In this document: one piece after another, positions 11,492-63,764 of the stretch | How the letters are laid out: every line of letters starts with the position of its first letter | Position numbering within the stretch: position 1 is the stretch's first letter | Source of the DNA: Gammaproteobacteria bacterium | GTDB taxonomy: Bacteria; Pseudomonadota; Gammaproteobacteria; Burkholderiales; Gallionellaceae | Direction of reading: 5' to 3' | DNA length: 64,000 nt | Assembly: GCA_018820925.1 (NCBI GenBank) | Contig: JAHJNJ010000024.1 | Coordinates: 1-64,000 of the forward strand | Notes under the pieces: model-generated | What the model was told of the DNA's origin: nothing | What the model saw: only the letters and a program-made list of their open reading frames with translations | Database searches by the model: none | Translations under genes and position numbers: made by a program

Positions 11492-12239
11492 ACCGGGATC
11501 AAGCGCGGCACCGGCCCAGAACTGAAAGTAAGGTTTGCGCCAGGATGGAATTCGGCATGAAACCCGATCGACATTATCCTGGAAACAGCAGTTGGACGAA
11601 GTGTAGTGTGCGTTCATCTCGGTGCAGGGCAAGGCGCGAGAGCGTGGCTTTTCCGGCTGAGACGATCCGAATAATGCTGCCTTTTCGATCAGCGCATTAC
11701 CTGGTAGGGGTGAAAGCAAGAACCGATCTCGCTCGTCGTGGCGTAGCTCGGGCCTGCCTGGCTCGGAGATACTCCCGAAGGTGCCGTTGAATTTCCTGCT
11801 TTTCGACCGGCTACTTTTTCATGATGATGATGTCATCGAGTTGGCGCTTGTATGACTGCTGATTGCCCCAGCAAGGAGTGACGCCGTCCGCCATGAATTC
11901 GGGGCAGTCGGTGAACCGCGGGCGGCAGCTCATCGCATGGTGGTACTCGTTGCTCCCGTAGGGGACACACTGGTTGGCCGCGTTGAATGCGCAGTTTTCA
12001 GGCAAGAAGGCATCCGCGCATGTGATGAATACCAGGCGACTGGCCTACCTATGACGCGTGACGGGGCGGATGCCTGGCTTGACAAGTTGGAGCAAGGCCA
12101 GGATGTGGAGCAGTAGTGGTTATGTCGCGCTATACCGCTTAGGCGGTCAGTCGGCAATCATCGTCGCTCTCCGCCATCATAAGGAAACCGGGTATTTATC
12201 AGCGCAACATAGCAATGAGTTACCTGGCGTTTTCAGCGA
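11492..12239. other. Gene-poor relic stretch
   Basis: About 750 bp separate the cyclase from the groEL terminator. No full-length gene is visible. Two unrelated fragments face each other near 11985-12005: an antitoxin-like frame on the plus strand, and on the minus strand a Cys-rich frame (11811-12005) containing CVPYGSNEYHHAMSC and ending IIIMKK. The latter has no ATG and is closed upstream by a TAG. I see no tRNA or repeat between 11492 and 11810. Confidence 0.4.
11937..12116 (+). pseudogene. Antitoxin-like C-terminal fragment
   Basis: A 59-codon frame ends with DEYQATGLPMTRDGADAWL followed by DKLEQGQDVEQ. This resembles the C-terminal tail of small CopG-type antitoxins (D-E-Y-x-x-T-G-L, then D-A-W-L-x-x-L-E-x-G). 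The N-terminal DNA-binding half is absent and the first 20 residues look like noise. No toxin gene follows. I treat it as a relic; the family assignment rests on recalled motif similarity only. Confidence 0.35.
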
Positions 12240-47786: not shown

Positions 47787-47801
47787 GCAAGTGCCGTGCC
47801 A
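47787..47801 (-). promoter_or_regulatory. Sigma54 (-24/-12) promoter of nifE
   Basis: TGGCAC (47796-47801), five bases, then TTGC (47787-47790) on the minus strand fits the RpoN consensus exactly. It is about 36 bp upstream of the nifE ATG. Confidence 0.93.
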
Positions 47802-47839: not shown

Positions 47840-47865
47840 TGTCTTGTAGCAAACCCGACAAGACA
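47840..47865. promoter_or_regulatory. NifA upstream activator site, extended palindrome
   Basis: TGT (47845-47847), ten bases, ACA (47858-47860) is the NifA consensus. The symmetry extends to TGTCTTGT-N10-ACAAGACA, 8-bp arms with the regular 10-bp spacer. It lies 39 bp upstream of the nifE -24 element and could also serve the divergent gene at 48025. Confidence 0.85.
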
Positions 47866-56250: not shown

Positions 56251-57147
<897 letters not shown>

Positions 57148-57195: not shown

Positions 57196-57210
57196 GCAAG
57201 CTCCGTGCCA
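57196..57210 (-). promoter_or_regulatory. Sigma54 (-24/-12) promoter of nifHDK
   Basis: TGGCAC (57205-57210), five bases, TTGC (57196-57199) on the minus strand is a perfect RpoN site, about 67 bp before the nifH ATG. Confidence 0.95.
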
Positions 57211-57307
57211 CCCGCCATAAAACCGCCCAACCGCATGAAATGCATAAGAAAATTAAATCAACCCTACAAGCATTGGCGGATGTGGAACACAACAAAGAAG
57301 TTCCCTT

Positions 57308-57323
57308 TGTAGCAGTGACGACA
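57308..57323. promoter_or_regulatory. NifA upstream activator site of nifH
   Basis: TGT (57308-57310), ten bases, ACA (57321-57323) fits the NifA consensus and is 97 bp upstream of the nifH -24 box, the usual distance. It directly abuts the draT start codon at 57324. Confidence 0.82.
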
Positions 57324-58142
57324 ATGCCGACACTCGTACTGCCCCGCCCGGCGCGGCTGCCCATCAACCGCTGCAACCTGCCCGCCGACATCCTGGGCGG
57401 CCTGACTTTCCAGCGCGCGCCGGTTGCACTCGAACTGGACGGCGTGGCCCAGTTCCATCGCGGCCTGTTCCAACTGCTGAGCCGCATAGAGGATGCCAAG
57501 GAACGCGCCGCCGCATTCACCATGCACATGAACGCGGCGTTCTATCTGGACGAACCGGAACAGGCGGGCTACACCTCGAAGTCGAAGCAAAAGAGACAGA
57601 AAGCGGATTACCTGCGCATGGTGCGCGGCTGGAGCTTCGATGCTGATGGAAGAGAAGGCGCGGCACTGAAAGGCTGGGTGGAATCGCGCTTCGGCCTGCT
57701 CCCCCGCCATCACGCCGCCCCGATCCGCAACCTCTCCAGCGACGCCTACCGCCGCTACCTGGAAATGCGCGCGACTGCCTTATATGGAACCAATGCGCTG
57801 GAATCGCAATTCGACCTGCTCTACACCTACTGCCAGTACGAACTCGCCAGACTCTATCCGGGCGAAACCCACCTCACCCTGTATCGCGGAGTGAACCGGG
57901 TGGACGACTATGAAACTCTGACAACGCTGGACGACAAACGCCGCGTCGTGCTGTTCAACAGCCTGAGCTCCTTCACCTCCAACCGCGAACGCGCCGACGA
58001 ATTCGGCGACTACCTGCTTACCGCGCAAGTACCGCTGGCCAAGGTGTTCTGTTATACGAGGTTGCTGCCGGGGATGCTGCAGGGAGAGGATGAGTACACC
58101 GTGATTGGCGGGTTGTATGAGGTGTGTATTGCGGCGTATTAA
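57324..58142 (+). CDS. draT: NAD+-dinitrogen-reductase ADP-ribosyltransferase
   Basis: The 272-residue enzyme moves ADP-ribose from NAD+ to Arg101 of NifH, switching nitrogenase off on ammonium or energy stress. Family blocks seen are PARLPINRCNLPADILGGLT, YGTNALESQFDLLYTYCQYE, HLTLYRGVNRVDDYE and LPGMLQGEDEYTVIGG. Start 57324 gives the family N-terminus, but it lacks a good ribosome site because the NifA site abuts it. An ATG at 57240 would add 28 unrelated residues. draG, which reverses the reaction, is not in the window. Confidence 0.9.
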   Translation: MPTLVLPRPARLPINRCNLPADILGGLTFQRAPVALELDGVAQFHRGLFQLLSRIEDAKERAAAFTMHMNAAFYLDEPEQAGYTSKSKQKRQKADYLRMVRGWSFDADGREGAALKGWVESRFGLLPRHHAAPIRNLSSDAYRRYLEMRATALYGTNALESQFDLLYTYCQYELARLYPGETHLTLYRGVNRVDDYETLTTLDDKRRVVLFNSLSSFTSNRERADEFGDYLLTAQVPLAKVFCYTRLLPGMLQGEDEYTVIGGLYEVCIAAY

Positions 58143-60059: not shown

Positions 60060-60229
60060 TAGGATAGTTATTCTAATTAATGGTTAGTCGTGGAGGGAGT
60101 GATTACTCTCCATCCTTCCCTTGCGCAGCGTGAGCCTTCCAAACATCTTACCACTGGCTCTAGCCAGCCTCCATTAGCCCGGATGCACCCAATTTGTTTT
60201 GAACCCGGATTGTCCATTAGAGCCGAAGC

Positions 60230-60330
60230 CCCTTCCACCCTTACAGGGGGAAGGCCAGAATGGGGGTAGAGTCGATGATCTCCCGCGCTTCTACCCCCTC
60301 CCTAACCCTCCCCCTGCAAGGGGGAGGGGA
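60230..60330. repeat. Composite GC-rich palindromic element
   Basis: Left hairpin (CCTTCCACCCTTACAGGGGG, imperfect), AATGGGGGTAGAG, about 20 nt, TCTACCCCCTCCC and right hairpin (CCTCCCCCTGCAAGGGGGAG). A full 100-bp copy. Confidence 0.85.
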
Positions 60331-60401
60331 TATTGTGGCTTCCAATGGATTATCCGGGTTGAATGAAATGGGGTTCCGTTCCTGAGATCCACTGAGCAAG
60401 C

Positions 60402-60478
60402 AGGATGGGTTGAGCGCAAGCGATACCCATCGCCCATCTGCAAAAATGATAGGTATCGCTTGCGCTCAACCCATCCTG
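60402..60478. repeat. Palindromic repeat, AGGATGGGTTGAGCGC family
   Basis: AGGATGGGTTGAGCGCAAGC with GATACC (60402-60427) is complementary to GGTATCGCTTGCGC and onward to CCCATCCT at 60478. Loop about 25 nt. Related to 52726-52850. Confidence 0.85.
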
Positions 60479-60627
60479 CACGGTCTACTGCCGACGGGAC
60501 GTCGGCGCTCCCAACAACCAACCCCCAGCCCCTACCCCCGCACCCTGTCCGACAAGATTTCCGGCTTTGTCGCATTTACTCCAATCCCCTCCCCGCCGTA
60601 ACCCGCGCCAATGCTGGGTCGGCACTC
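60479..60627. other. Spacer before the SIR2-hemerythrin promoter
   Basis: About 150 bp with no gene. It contains no NifA-type TGT-N10-ACA site that I could find. Confidence 0.5.
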
Positions 60628-60642
60628 TGGCCCGATTATTGC
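60628..60642 (+). promoter_or_regulatory. Sigma54-type promoter of the SIR2-hemerythrin operon
   Basis: TGGCCC (60628-60633), five bases, TTGC (60639-60642) matches the RpoN consensus with one change (A to C) in the -24 box. It lies 38 bp upstream of the start codon. Confidence 0.72.
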
Positions 60643-60679
60643 GAATGATTCCCTTGTCATTACAAGAGGAGTTATCCCA

Positions 60680-61540
60680 ATGAGTACAGTATTCGAGCAA
60701 ATCTTCACCGGCCTGTCCGACGGCAATGTCGTCCCCTACCTGGGCGCGGGTGCGCTCAACGGCGTGATCGACCCGGCCACGGGCCGTGCCATCCCCGCCG
60801 ACAGCGACAGCCTGATCATCGCCATGAACAACGGGCAGCCGATGGCGCCCAAGCTGATGTATGAATTTCCGCGTGCGGCGATGAACGTGGAACTGAAGCG
60901 CGGGCGCTCGGCGGTGAACAAATTCCTCGATGCGACCTATCGCGATACGCAGTGGAGTGTGTCCGCGTTGCATGCCTGGCTGGCACAGCAAAAGCTGCCT
61001 TACATTGTGGATGCCAACCGCGACACACAATTGCAGAAGCAATACGCCGCCACACCGCACACGCTGATTGTCGGCATCGCGCGCATGTCGGGCAACGCAT
61101 ATCGCTTCCGCCTGTTCAACTATGATGGCACCAGCTACACCGCGATCGAGCAGGAAGCGGTCGATACCAGCCTGCCCATCCTGTTCAAGCCGCTGGGCAC
61201 GCCGCTGCCGGAATCGAACTACATCGCCTCCGATGCCGACTTTGTCGATTACATCACCGAGCTGATGGGCGGCTTTGCCATTCCGTCTTTCGTCAAACGC
61301 ATGCGCCAGAACAAACGCTACCTGCTGCTCGGCATGCGCCTGAACCGCGACACCGACCGCATGGTGTTCTCCGACATCATCTTTGGTGCGGACAAGCCCG
61401 CAGGCTGGGCGCTCATCCCGCACGCGACCGACAAGGAAAAGCGTTACCTGGGCAAAATGGGCATCGAGATCGTGAATGCGGATGCAGCGGATTTCCTTAC
61501 TGCCGCGCAGAGCTGGAACGGCAGCCTGGCGGCGGCATGA
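60680..61540 (+). CDS. SIR2-like (SIR2_2) domain protein
   Basis: The 286-residue protein has the SIR2-like NAD-binding start NVVPYLGAGAL (residues 16-26), the central LPILFKPLGTPLPESNYIAS and the C-terminal YLLLGMRLNRDTDRMVFSDI segment. SIR2-like proteins bind NAD and act as deacylases, ADP-ribosyl enzymes or NADases. The activity cannot be read here because several sirtuin catalytic residues are not obvious. An AGAGGAG site precedes the ATG. The stop overlaps the hemerythrin gene (ATGA). The sigma54 promoter suggests a nitrogen-fixation role. Confidence 0.8.
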   Translation: MSTVFEQIFTGLSDGNVVPYLGAGALNGVIDPATGRAIPADSDSLIIAMNNGQPMAPKLMYEFPRAAMNVELKRGRSAVNKFLDATYRDTQWSVSALHAWLAQQKLPYIVDANRDTQLQKQYAATPHTLIVGIARMSGNAYRFRLFNYDGTSYTAIEQEAVDTSLPILFKPLGTPLPESNYIASDADFVDYITELMGGFAIPSFVKRMRQNKRYLLLGMRLNRDTDRMVFSDIIFGADKPAGWALIPHATDKEKRYLGKMGIEIVNADAADFLTAAQSWNGSLAAA

Positions 61541-61953
61541 GCAAACATCCGGCGGTATGGGACGAGGTGCGCCACACGCTGGGCATGGCGGAGATGGACG
61601 CCACCCACCGCGAGTTCATCGCACAGGTGGCGGCGCTCATCGCGGCCGACAATGCCGAGTTCCCCGCCCTGTTCCAGGCGCTGGTCAACCACACCGCCGC
61701 GCACTTCAAGGCCGAAGGGTTGTTGATGCGCGAGTCCGGATACCGCGGCCTGCCCGAGCACGAAAGCGAACATCACCGCGTGCTGGGCGAGTTGCAACAG
61801 CTCAACCGCAGCCTCAAGCGCGGCCACCTGCCGCTGGTGCGCGCCTATGTGAAGGAAGGTTTGCCGGAGTGGTTCGACACACATCTGGCCATGATGGACA
61901 GCGCGCTGGCGATGCACCTGCGGAAGAAGGAGCATGCTGCCGTTGACCCGTGA
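61537..61953 (+). CDS. Bacteriohemerythrin
   Basis: The 138-residue four-helix protein has the full set of diiron ligands: His in MDATHREF, H-x-x-x-E in HFKAE, H-x-x-x-H in HESEH and H-x-x-x-x-D in HLAMMD, plus a further His in NHTAAH. It should bind oxygen reversibly at a diiron site. It is translationally coupled to the SIR2-like gene. A role in oxygen delivery, sensing or protection of nitrogenase is plausible inference. Confidence 0.92.
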   Translation: MSKHPAVWDEVRHTLGMAEMDATHREFIAQVAALIAADNAEFPALFQALVNHTAAHFKAEGLLMRESGYRGLPEHESEHHRVLGELQQLNRSLKRGHLPLVRAYVKEGLPEWFDTHLAMMDSALAMHLRKKEHAAVDP

Positions 61954-62261
61954 AAGACGGTGTATCGCGCCTTGGCCCTGCTCTTCCTGACAGGCGCAAG
62001 CGCTTTGCCGCCATGCCATTCATATTAAATATGTCTGTCCGGATCACATGCAAACAAAACCCTCGCCGGTAACTAGCCTCGGTTTGTTTACAGGTGATAC
62101 ACTCCAAAACCATGAACAAATCATCAATCACAAGCGCCTTGACGACGCCCATCCCGACCAAGCCTCCTGACAGACGGTAGCCTTGCAAGTCATCATCCTG
62201 GCGAAATATATCCGGCAGGAACGTCTATACAATCAGAACCGTACAAGAATCGAGCAGAACC
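61954..62261. other. Intergenic stretch before nhaB
   Basis: About 308 bp. A 22-codon plus-strand frame (MNKSSITSALTTPIPTKPPD) is present but unsupported. TTGTTTACA and GATACACT near 62090 could be a weak promoter. No repeat or RNA gene seen. Confidence 0.4.
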
Positions 62262-63764
62262 ATGACTACAGCAACCCAACCCGGCGTCCTTAACGTCCTC
62301 GCCAGCAGTTTCCTCGGCCATACGCCGCGCTGGTACAAACAGGCCATCGTCGCCTGCCTCATCCTCAACGTGGCGGTGTTCTACACCGCCGGACCGCTGA
62401 TCACCGGCTGGCTGATCCTCGGCGAGTTCATCTTCACGCTGGCCATGGCGTTGAAATGCTTTCCGCTGCAACCCGGCGGCCTGCTCGCGCTGGAGGCAGT
62501 CATCCTCGGCCTGACCGACACGCATACCGTCTACCGCGAGGTCGAGCACGGCCTGCCCGTGCTGTTGCTGGTGATCTTCATGGTGGCTGGCGTGCATTTC
62601 CTGCGCGGCATGCTGTACCGCATGATCAGCCACATCCTGCTTGGCATCCGATCCCGCATCCTGCTCAACCTGGTCGTCATCGTGGTGGTCTCCGTCTTTT
62701 CGGCCTTCCTCGATGCCCTCACCCTGCTGGCGGTACTGGTCGCCGTCTCAATCGGCTTCTACGAGGTCTATCACAAAGCTGTATCCAGCAAGGGTTATCA
62801 CGAGGACCCCGACCTGACCGATGATTACGTGGATGAGCTGCATCGCGCCGACCTCGAGCAGTTTCGCGCCGTGCTGCGCAGCATGCTGATGCACGGCGCC
62901 ATCGGCACGGCCATCGGCGGGGTCTGTACCCTGGTCGGCGAACCCGAAAACATCGTCATCGGCACCGAAGCGGGCTGGAGCTTCATGGAGTTCTTCATGC
63001 ATGCGGCACCGTCCACCATCCCCACCCTGCTGGCCGGTTTTGCCACCTGTGTGGTGATCGAAAAATATAAATTGTTCGGCTTCGGCGCGGAACTGCCCGC
63101 CGGCGTGCGCCAGATCCTGCTGGACGAAGACCGCCGCCTGCGCGCCAGCCACACCGCGCATGACCGCCTGATGCTGGTCGCCCAGGGCGTGGTCGCGGTG
63201 CTGCTGGTGCTGGCGCTGGGCTTTCACGTCGCCGAGATCGGCCTGATCGGCCTGGCGGTCATTGTCATCGTCTCGTCCATCGCCGGCGTCACCGACGAAC
63301 ACCATGTCGCCGAAGCTTTCATGCCTGGCCTGCCGTTCGCGTCCTTGCTGGTGGTGTTCTACGTGATCGTGGCGATGATCAGCAGCCAGCACATGTTCGT
63401 TCCCGTCATCCAGTGGGTGCTGGCGATGGAGGACCGCATGCAGGTGTTCATGATCTTCGTCACCAACGGCGCGCTGTCTGCCATCAGTGACAACGTGTTC
63501 GTGGCGGCCATCTACATGAAGGAACTCAAGGCGGTATTCGACTCCGGACTCACCACGCGCGAACTGTTCGATGCACAATCCGTCGCGGTGGTGATGGGGA
63601 CGGGCATCCCGAGCATGTCCACGCCGAATGGGCAAGCGGCCTTCCTGTACCTGCTGACCTCGCAGATCGCGCCGCTGATCCGCCTCGGCTATGGGCGCAT
63701 GCTGTGGATGGCCCTGCCTTATGCGATTGTCACGACGATTGTTGCCGGGCTGACGCTGTACTGA
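62262..63764 (+). CDS. nhaB: Na+/H+ antiporter NhaB
   Basis: The 500-residue inner-membrane protein has about 11-12 helices and the NhaB landmarks FLGHTPRWYKQAIVACLILN, GIRSRILLNLVVIVVVSVFS-AFLDALTLLAV, GGVCTLVGEPENIVI and SAISDNVFVAAIYMKELK. It exports Na+ in exchange for protons. Together with the Mrp system at the left end it shows a strong sodium-handling capacity. It appears monocistronic. Confidence 0.95.
   Translation: MTTATQPGVLNVLASSFLGHTPRWYKQAIVACLILNVAVFYTAGPLITGWLILGEFIFTLAMALKCFPLQPGGLLALEAVILGLTDTHTVYREVEHGLPVLLLVIFMVAGVHFLRGMLYRMISHILLGIRSRILLNLVVIVVVSVFSAFLDALTLLAVLVAVSIGFYEVYHKAVSSKGYHEDPDLTDDYVDELHRADLEQFRAVLRSMLMHGAIGTAIGGVCTLVGEPENIVIGTEAGWSFMEFFMHAAPSTIPTLLAGFATCVVIEKYKLFGFGAELPAGVRQILLDEDRRLRASHTAHDRLMLVAQGVVAVLLVLALGFHVAEIGLIGLAVIVIVSSIAGVTDEHHVAEAFMPGLPFASLLVVFYVIVAMISSQHMFVPVIQWVLAMEDRMQVFMIFVTNGALSAISDNVFVAAIYMKELKAVFDSGLTTRELFDAQSVAVVMGTGIPSMSTPNGQAAFLYLLTSQIAPLIRLGYGRMLWMALPYAIVTTIVAGLTLY

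Follow-up and report, generated by a model that had tools for sequence, protein, structure and literature searches.

A nif-linked operon of a degenerate SIR2-fold protein and a hemerythrin, with a predicted NifA-sigma54 promoter, in a Gallionellaceae genome

How aerobic diazotrophs keep an enzyme that O2 destroys working while they respire is a long-standing question. In Pseudomonas stutzeri A1501, the gene PST1325, which adjoins nifH, was named pnfA in 2010 and was reported to depend on NifA and sigma54 by quantitative reverse-transcription PCR (PMC2820453). According to that report, the pnfA mutant has 23% nitrogenase activity at 0.5% O2 and wild-type-like activity anaerobically; its nitrate-supported activity is much lower (called lost), and its nifH transcription is normal (PMC2820453). 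PnfA was described there with five close homologues, said to occur in diazotrophs only, and with a second subfamily at 20% identity, and it was likened to universal stress protein or electron transfer flavoprotein alpha, not to SIR2 (PMC2820453). PST_1325 is labelled SIR2 family in a 2024 paper (PMC11332353). Here, we analyze a pnfA-type gene that is followed by a hemerythrin gene in 64,000 nucleotides (nt) of a Gallionellaceae bacterium (contig JAHJNJ010000024.1 of assembly GCA_018820925.1), a stretch that we refer to as the window.

Related genes are mentioned in other diazotrophs. In Azoarcus BH72, draT, azo0536, and dcrH1 were proposed to form one transcript; azo0536 and dcrH1 rise on N2, a rise of draT was not detected, and a secondary promoter was suggested (PMC8467165). 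RpoN and NifA sites are predicted for azo0536 (PMC3916325). The Rhodobacter capsulatus protein Rcc03262 is reported as not found in the proteome of a nifA mutant (PMC6925177). The three papers that we probed for a function of SIR2 proteins in a nif setting give a label only, and we found no assigned biochemistry for the pnfA counterpart in the literature covered, which excludes subscription papers such as a 2009 study of Azoarcus DraT/DraG.

The original prediction had described a SIR2-like gene and a hemerythrin gene coupled by ATGA behind a TGGCCC-N5-TTGC site, and direct reading of the sequence agrees on both the coupling and the site. All coordinates are those of the whole stretch; the start at 60628 given in that prediction marks the promoter, not a gene. 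The features are:

60680..61540, + strand: pnfA-type gene for a degenerate SIR2-fold protein of 286 amino acids (aa)
61537..61953, + strand: hemerythrin gene, 138 aa, translationally coupled (ATGA), with all seven diiron ligands
60628..60642, + strand: sigma54 (-24/-12) promoter TGGCCCGATTATTGC, TGGCCC-N5-TTGC, in the same place in homologues
60568..60583, + strand: TGTCGCATTTACTCCA, which resembles a NifA upstream activator site and differs from TGT-N10-ACA at one base; it lies 60 nt ahead of the -24 element
57240..58142, + strand: draT (Pfam 348 bits), 2.5 kb upstream of pnfA
56251..57129, - strand: nifH, first gene of nifHDK, preceded by a separate sigma54 site (57196-57210) and by an exact TGT-N10-ACA (57308-57323)

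Translation of the SIR2-like gene starts with the ATG at 60680, 38 nt downstream of the sigma54 site, with AAGAGGAG ahead of it at 60664-60671. Its TGA stop (61538-61540) overlaps the hemerythrin ATG at 61537, forming the ATGA. The pnfA-hemerythrin operon is real and very probably functional.

We compared the locus with 300 genomes of its order, 398 genomes of its phylum, and 80 related loci. The loci are the best of 449 relatives that a 13-member profile found in a species-genome collection; they are mostly close kin, weighted to Gallionellaceae and neighbours. The order sample supports the suspected tie to nitrogen fixation: the SIR2-like gene occurs in 48 of the 300 genomes and nifD in 48, and 47 have both. 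These homologues split into 13 at 59-100% identity to the window protein (PnfA type) and 35 at 25-32% (second subfamily), and no genome showed both subfamilies. All 13 PnfA-type genomes have nifD (as a contig-edge fragment in G201). Only one genome carries nifD without the SIR2 gene (G132; 19.9 kb of its nif cluster has none), and only one carries the SIR2 gene without nifD (G135; the gene is there among genes of the nifB operon, close to the end of a contig). The gene is absent from three nifD-less genomes of the window's own family. Eight of the 35 second-subfamily members were read with 13-20 kb, and all are in a run with nifB, mostly after nifT. The same arrangement was seen in four plasmid records (Rhizobium, Sinorhizobium, Paraburkholderia, and Methylococcus) among 71 with a match.

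Across the phylum sample, 17 of the 398 genomes have the SIR2-like gene, 41 have nifD, and 15 have both; in one of the two exceptions (G538), the gene lies within a fix-nif cluster. Here nifD without the SIR2 gene is common (26/41), ruling the latter out as a universal nif part. The SIR2-like gene thus implies nif, with one open exception (G366), and many nif lineages lack it. A labelled nif-cluster gene (draT included) accompanies it in 60 of the 80 loci, and in 40 of the 49 where the stretch exceeds 15 kb.

Sigma54/NifA-type control of the promoter is likewise supported by the sequence and its conservation. A sigma54-like site scoring at least 9 is present in 74 of 77 homologous upstream regions vs 34 of 1,106 non-nif control open reading frames (ORFs). 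In the window, TGGCNC-N5-TTGC occurs nine times against 1.83 expected, a count reached in none of 100 shuffles, and two of the nine sites precede nifH (57196-57210, minus strand) and a nifE-like gene (47787-47801, minus strand). A scan of 60300-62300 showed no sigma70 promoter ahead of pnfA. Exact TGT-N10-ACA sites stand ahead of the nifE-like promoter (47845-47860) and of nifH (57308-57323), are not enriched across the window (nine found, 10.2 expected), and are lacking ahead of the window pnfA, which has only the one-mismatch site at -60. With a matrix built from 21 exact sites in other loci, this site scores p=0.010 vs shuffles. Each of the 32 upstream regions that were scored, from the window and from 31 of its 34 closest loci, has a NifA-like element at -59 to -61 (p<0.05 in 30 of them); these loci are related and the conservation is partly descent, though the matrix was trained on other loci. 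Exact sites occur in 25 of 76 upstream regions, vs 4.4 expected from shuffles. Control of the operon by NifA and sigma54 is thus a supported prediction. For the secondary promoter suggested in Azoarcus, the site that is conserved between draT and pnfA offers itself as a candidate.

Farther upstream of pnfA, the window has a near-perfect (97%) inverted repeat of 32 nt with 16 nt between its arms (60400-60479). One arm has five more copies in the genome with two to three mismatches, and the element looks like a dispersed palindromic repeat. Two more inverted repeats lie at 60199-60363.

The window protein matches Pfam SIR2_2 (PF13289) with 18.5 bits, under the cut-off of 24.5; against this weak sequence match, the predicted fold gives strong support for SIR2, near known NAD-hydrolyzing enzymes (NADases). 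All 15 of 15 second-subfamily members match SIR2_2 at E<=0.01. Catalytic residue positions were assigned by alignment and motif. The position of the catalytic histidine holds leucine, methionine, cysteine, or threonine, and a histidine in none of 91 PnfA-type sequences. The asparagine and aspartate of the TTNYD-type motif are retained in all 91, and the nucleotide pocket motifs are conserved. PnfA is probably a non-enzymatic, degenerate SIR2 protein. With the pocket motifs kept and the catalytic histidine lost, binding without hydrolysis, of NAD(H) or a related ligand, is its most likely activity. In the second subfamily, five of 32 sequences have the histidine and none has the asparagine (tryptophan in 31). 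Members with the histidine (e.g., L034 8001-8756) may differ in activity; the Sinorhizobium copy reads YTPHGS. A similarity to MadM was set aside as chance (both matches are far under their cut-offs, and the fold is SIR2), as was a role in anti-phage defence, given the nif context and no PADLOC match of the window protein at E<=0.1. One second-subfamily member gave a weak PADLOC match to LmuA (E 0.011).

These residues bear on the model of the original prediction, in which PnfA, depending on O2, would consume NAD+ through hydrolysis, ADP-ribosylation, or deacetylation and thereby control DraT or nitrogenase. A predicted fold near known NADases and the retained asparagine and aspartate would suit such chemistry, and for Zymomonas ZMO1821 a deacetylase function has been put forward as a guess (PMC8600466). 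In addition, draT is present in all 13 PnfA-type genomes of the order sample and in 45 of the 80 loci, directly upstream of pnfA (within 700 nt) in 22. However, the catalytic histidine of active sirtuins and SIR2 NADases is never present in the 91 PnfA-type sequences, on which basis we reject full sirtuin catalysis, and the second subfamily has tryptophan in place of the asparagine in 31 of 32 sequences. A1501 is reported to lack DraT and DraG (PMC2820453), and 14 of the 35 second-subfamily genomes (some incomplete) show no draT, so that DraT is ruled out as an obligatory partner. NAD+ consumption tied to DraT is not supported, and we regard the model as distinctly improbable.

None of the seven diiron ligands (H24, H56, E60, H75, H79, H116, and D121) is missing from the hemerythrin, consistent with the probable connection to O2 that had been proposed. 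The protein passes the cut-offs of PF01814 (26.8 bits; cut-off 25.3) and TIGR02481 (64.2; cut-off 51.75) and reaches 61.9 bits with the bacteriohemerythrin model NF033749, under its curated cut-off of 84. A hemerythrin gene lies downstream on the same strand within 1.5 kb in 67 of the 80 loci, overlapping the SIR2 stop in 45 of these, and the seven ligands are kept in all locus hemerythrins that cover those positions. An equal frequency of the pair in non-diazotrophs, which would have spoken against the link, was looked for and not seen: hemerythrins of at least 49% identity number 11 in the 300 genomes, and all are within 0.71 kb of pnfA in nifD-bearing genomes (the nifD of G201 being a contig-edge fragment). 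Eleven of the 13 PnfA-type genomes carry one. Two further genomes have a hemerythrin of 41-42% identity, and in another 33 that match at E<=1e-12 the hemerythrins are remoter (41% or less).

A plain O2 store or carrier for the respiratory chain, placed under nif control and co-transcribed with a functionally unrelated PnfA by chance of layout, would be another use of such a protein. Hemerythrins are reported to be numerous in Sideroxydans (14 genes in ES-1; PMC3770913), and 13 of the 80 loci have none within 1.5 kb. A chance neighbour is hard to reconcile with the gene overlap in 45 of 67 loci and with the lack of any hemerythrin of at least 49% identity away from pnfA in the 300 genomes, and we hold this explanation improbable.

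Side observations concern the partner gene. In three genomes, a protein without a Pfam match (one copy scanned) is encoded between pnfA and the hemerythrin gene (L045 9015-9572, L033 11510-12118). In Paraburkholderia, a weakly similar protein (23-27%) is encoded within a nif cluster, next to a truncated hemoglobin of group II; this relative has no match at E<=1e-8 in the 80 loci. In the locus L172 (4291-7505), draT is followed by a conserved gene without a name, by one that resembles draG by eye, and by a hemerythrin gene, and L171 (4063-7231) has a similar order with an apparently broken draG-looking frame.

We propose that this is a nif accessory operon under NifA-sigma54 control, in which a histidine-less PnfA and a hemerythrin together keep nitrogenase working during respiration of O2 or nitrate, a reading for which we judge the chances to be about even. 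It draws on what the present sequences show (the arrangement of the genes, the promoter and its conservation, the predicted fold, the lost residues, and the co-occurrence with nif) and on the NifA and RpoN dependence and the mutant phenotype reported for the A1501 counterpart. NifA and sigma54 would have the operon made when nitrogenase is made. PnfA would bind NAD(H) or a related ligand without hydrolysis and serve as a sensor or scaffold, and the hemerythrin would bind O2, perhaps nitric oxide (NO), at its diiron site. In a putative physical partnership, the two proteins would then either shield nitrogenase and its electron donors from the diatomic oxidant or match nitrogenase activity to the redox state. 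In A1501, the defect is confined to conditions that offer a respiratory acceptor, and the operon pairs a pocket-bearing, histidine-less SIR2 protein with a hemerythrin that has a full diiron site; for these reasons we favour a non-enzymatic NAD(H) sensor or scaffold with O2/NO handling. DraT is not essential to this mechanism, since A1501 reportedly does without it.

The phenotype also bears on a role in nitrogenase maturation or cofactor assembly, with the hemerythrin a passenger or a guard of labile intermediates. Genes of the second subfamily belong to the nifB operon, where nifZ, nifT, and genes for an aminotransferase and a ferredoxin are their typical neighbours, and the absence of any order-sample genome with both subfamilies suggests that their roles are interchangeable. 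A general maturation defect should also show anaerobically, unlike that of the A1501 mutant, which is then reported as wild-type (PMC2820453); we consider such a role possible, if unlikely.

Several points weigh against the proposed protective operon. The nitrate phenotype of A1501 occurs without O2 and is left unexplained by pure O2 protection; because of it, NO binding or redox sensing fits better than O2 protection alone. The 13 loci with no hemerythrin within 1.5 kb (L147 has just 358 nt downstream) indicate that the hemerythrin is not needed everywhere, and the G154 assembly contains both pnfA and nifD without a hemerythrin of this kind at E<=1e-12. The two hemerythrins of 41-42% identity, those of L172 and L171, are in nif clusters with draT of second-subfamily genomes, with no adjoining pnfA, and this hemerythrin line therefore seems at home in the nif neighbourhood in its own right. 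G366 of the phylum sample has the PnfA type and a hemerythrin but no nifD at E<=1e-100, and in L111 no -24/-12 site lies 120 nt or less from the start used. The window gene is taken as the pnfA orthologue from subfamily and synteny, not from direct comparison with the A1501 sequence. In A1501, pnfA is beside nifH, DraT is reported absent, and the report mentions no hemerythrin there. The main text of the Azoarcus transposon sequencing paper does not name azo0536.

Transfer of nif into plants needs a full parts list. Of the 48 genomes with nifD in the order sample, 47 carry the SIR2-like gene, and its counterpart has a loss-of-activity phenotype; such a gene is a missing part. SIR2 recognition without the catalytic histidine, alongside a hemerythrin of its own, leads to concrete tests and cautions against annotation as a deacetylase. 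A bolder version of the proposal is a DraT-independent redox/O2 gate, switched on by NifA, in which the pseudo-sirtuin reads NAD(H) without consuming it and, with the O2/NO hemerythrin, sets nitrogenase post-translationally according to respiration. We think this unlikely at present; if true, the gate would add a further widespread role of the SIR2 fold to deacetylation and phage defence, one that almost all diazotrophs sampled from the order would have through one of two interchangeable subfamilies.

Among known systems, the SIR2 NADases ThsA and KomC belong to phage defence and PnfA to nif, and the catalytic histidine present in the ThsA/KomC type (mutants KomC H146N and DSR2 H171A) is absent in PnfA. 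The nifB-operon SIR2 proteins (R. capsulatus Rcc03262, Zymomonas ZMO1821, and the Rhizobium etli p42d copy) are of the same superfamily and nif-linked, with NifA dependence in R. capsulatus; the p42d copy was aligned, and Rcc03262 and ZMO1821 are assigned solely from their published labels and positions. They differ in location (the nifB operon), in identity to the window protein (24-30% for aligned members), in having tryptophan for asparagine (31/32), and in having no hemerythrin labelled nearby in eight loci at 13-20 kb. In Azoarcus olearius BH72, the order draT-azo0536-dcrH1 matches draT-pnfA-hemerythrin of Azoarcus indigens (L154), which suggests from place and name only that azo0536 is of the PnfA type and dcrH1 the hemerythrin; in the window, unlike BH72, 2.5 kb of other DNA separates draT from pnfA. 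The PnfA-type proteins of Azoarcus and Ketobacter share 62% and 59% identity with the window protein. In Ketobacter (L156), the gene is in the place corresponding to A1501: it diverges from nifH and has a Nif11 gene and a nifX/Y-type gene downstream; the Nif11-domain gene (11672-11875) may correspond to P. stutzeri PST1324 or PST1323. With A1501 PnfA itself, the window gene shares NifA-sigma54 control (predicted from sequence for the window), nif linkage, an occurrence described as limited to diazotrophs (here with G366 as an exception), and a second subfamily, given for A1501 as about 20% identical. The novelty first proposed is therefore only partly upheld, pnfA having been described in 2010 and draT-azo0536-dcrH1 in Azoarcus; what the present analysis adds is the SIR2 fold with its active site lost, how strong the nif linkage is, and the dedicated hemerythrin.
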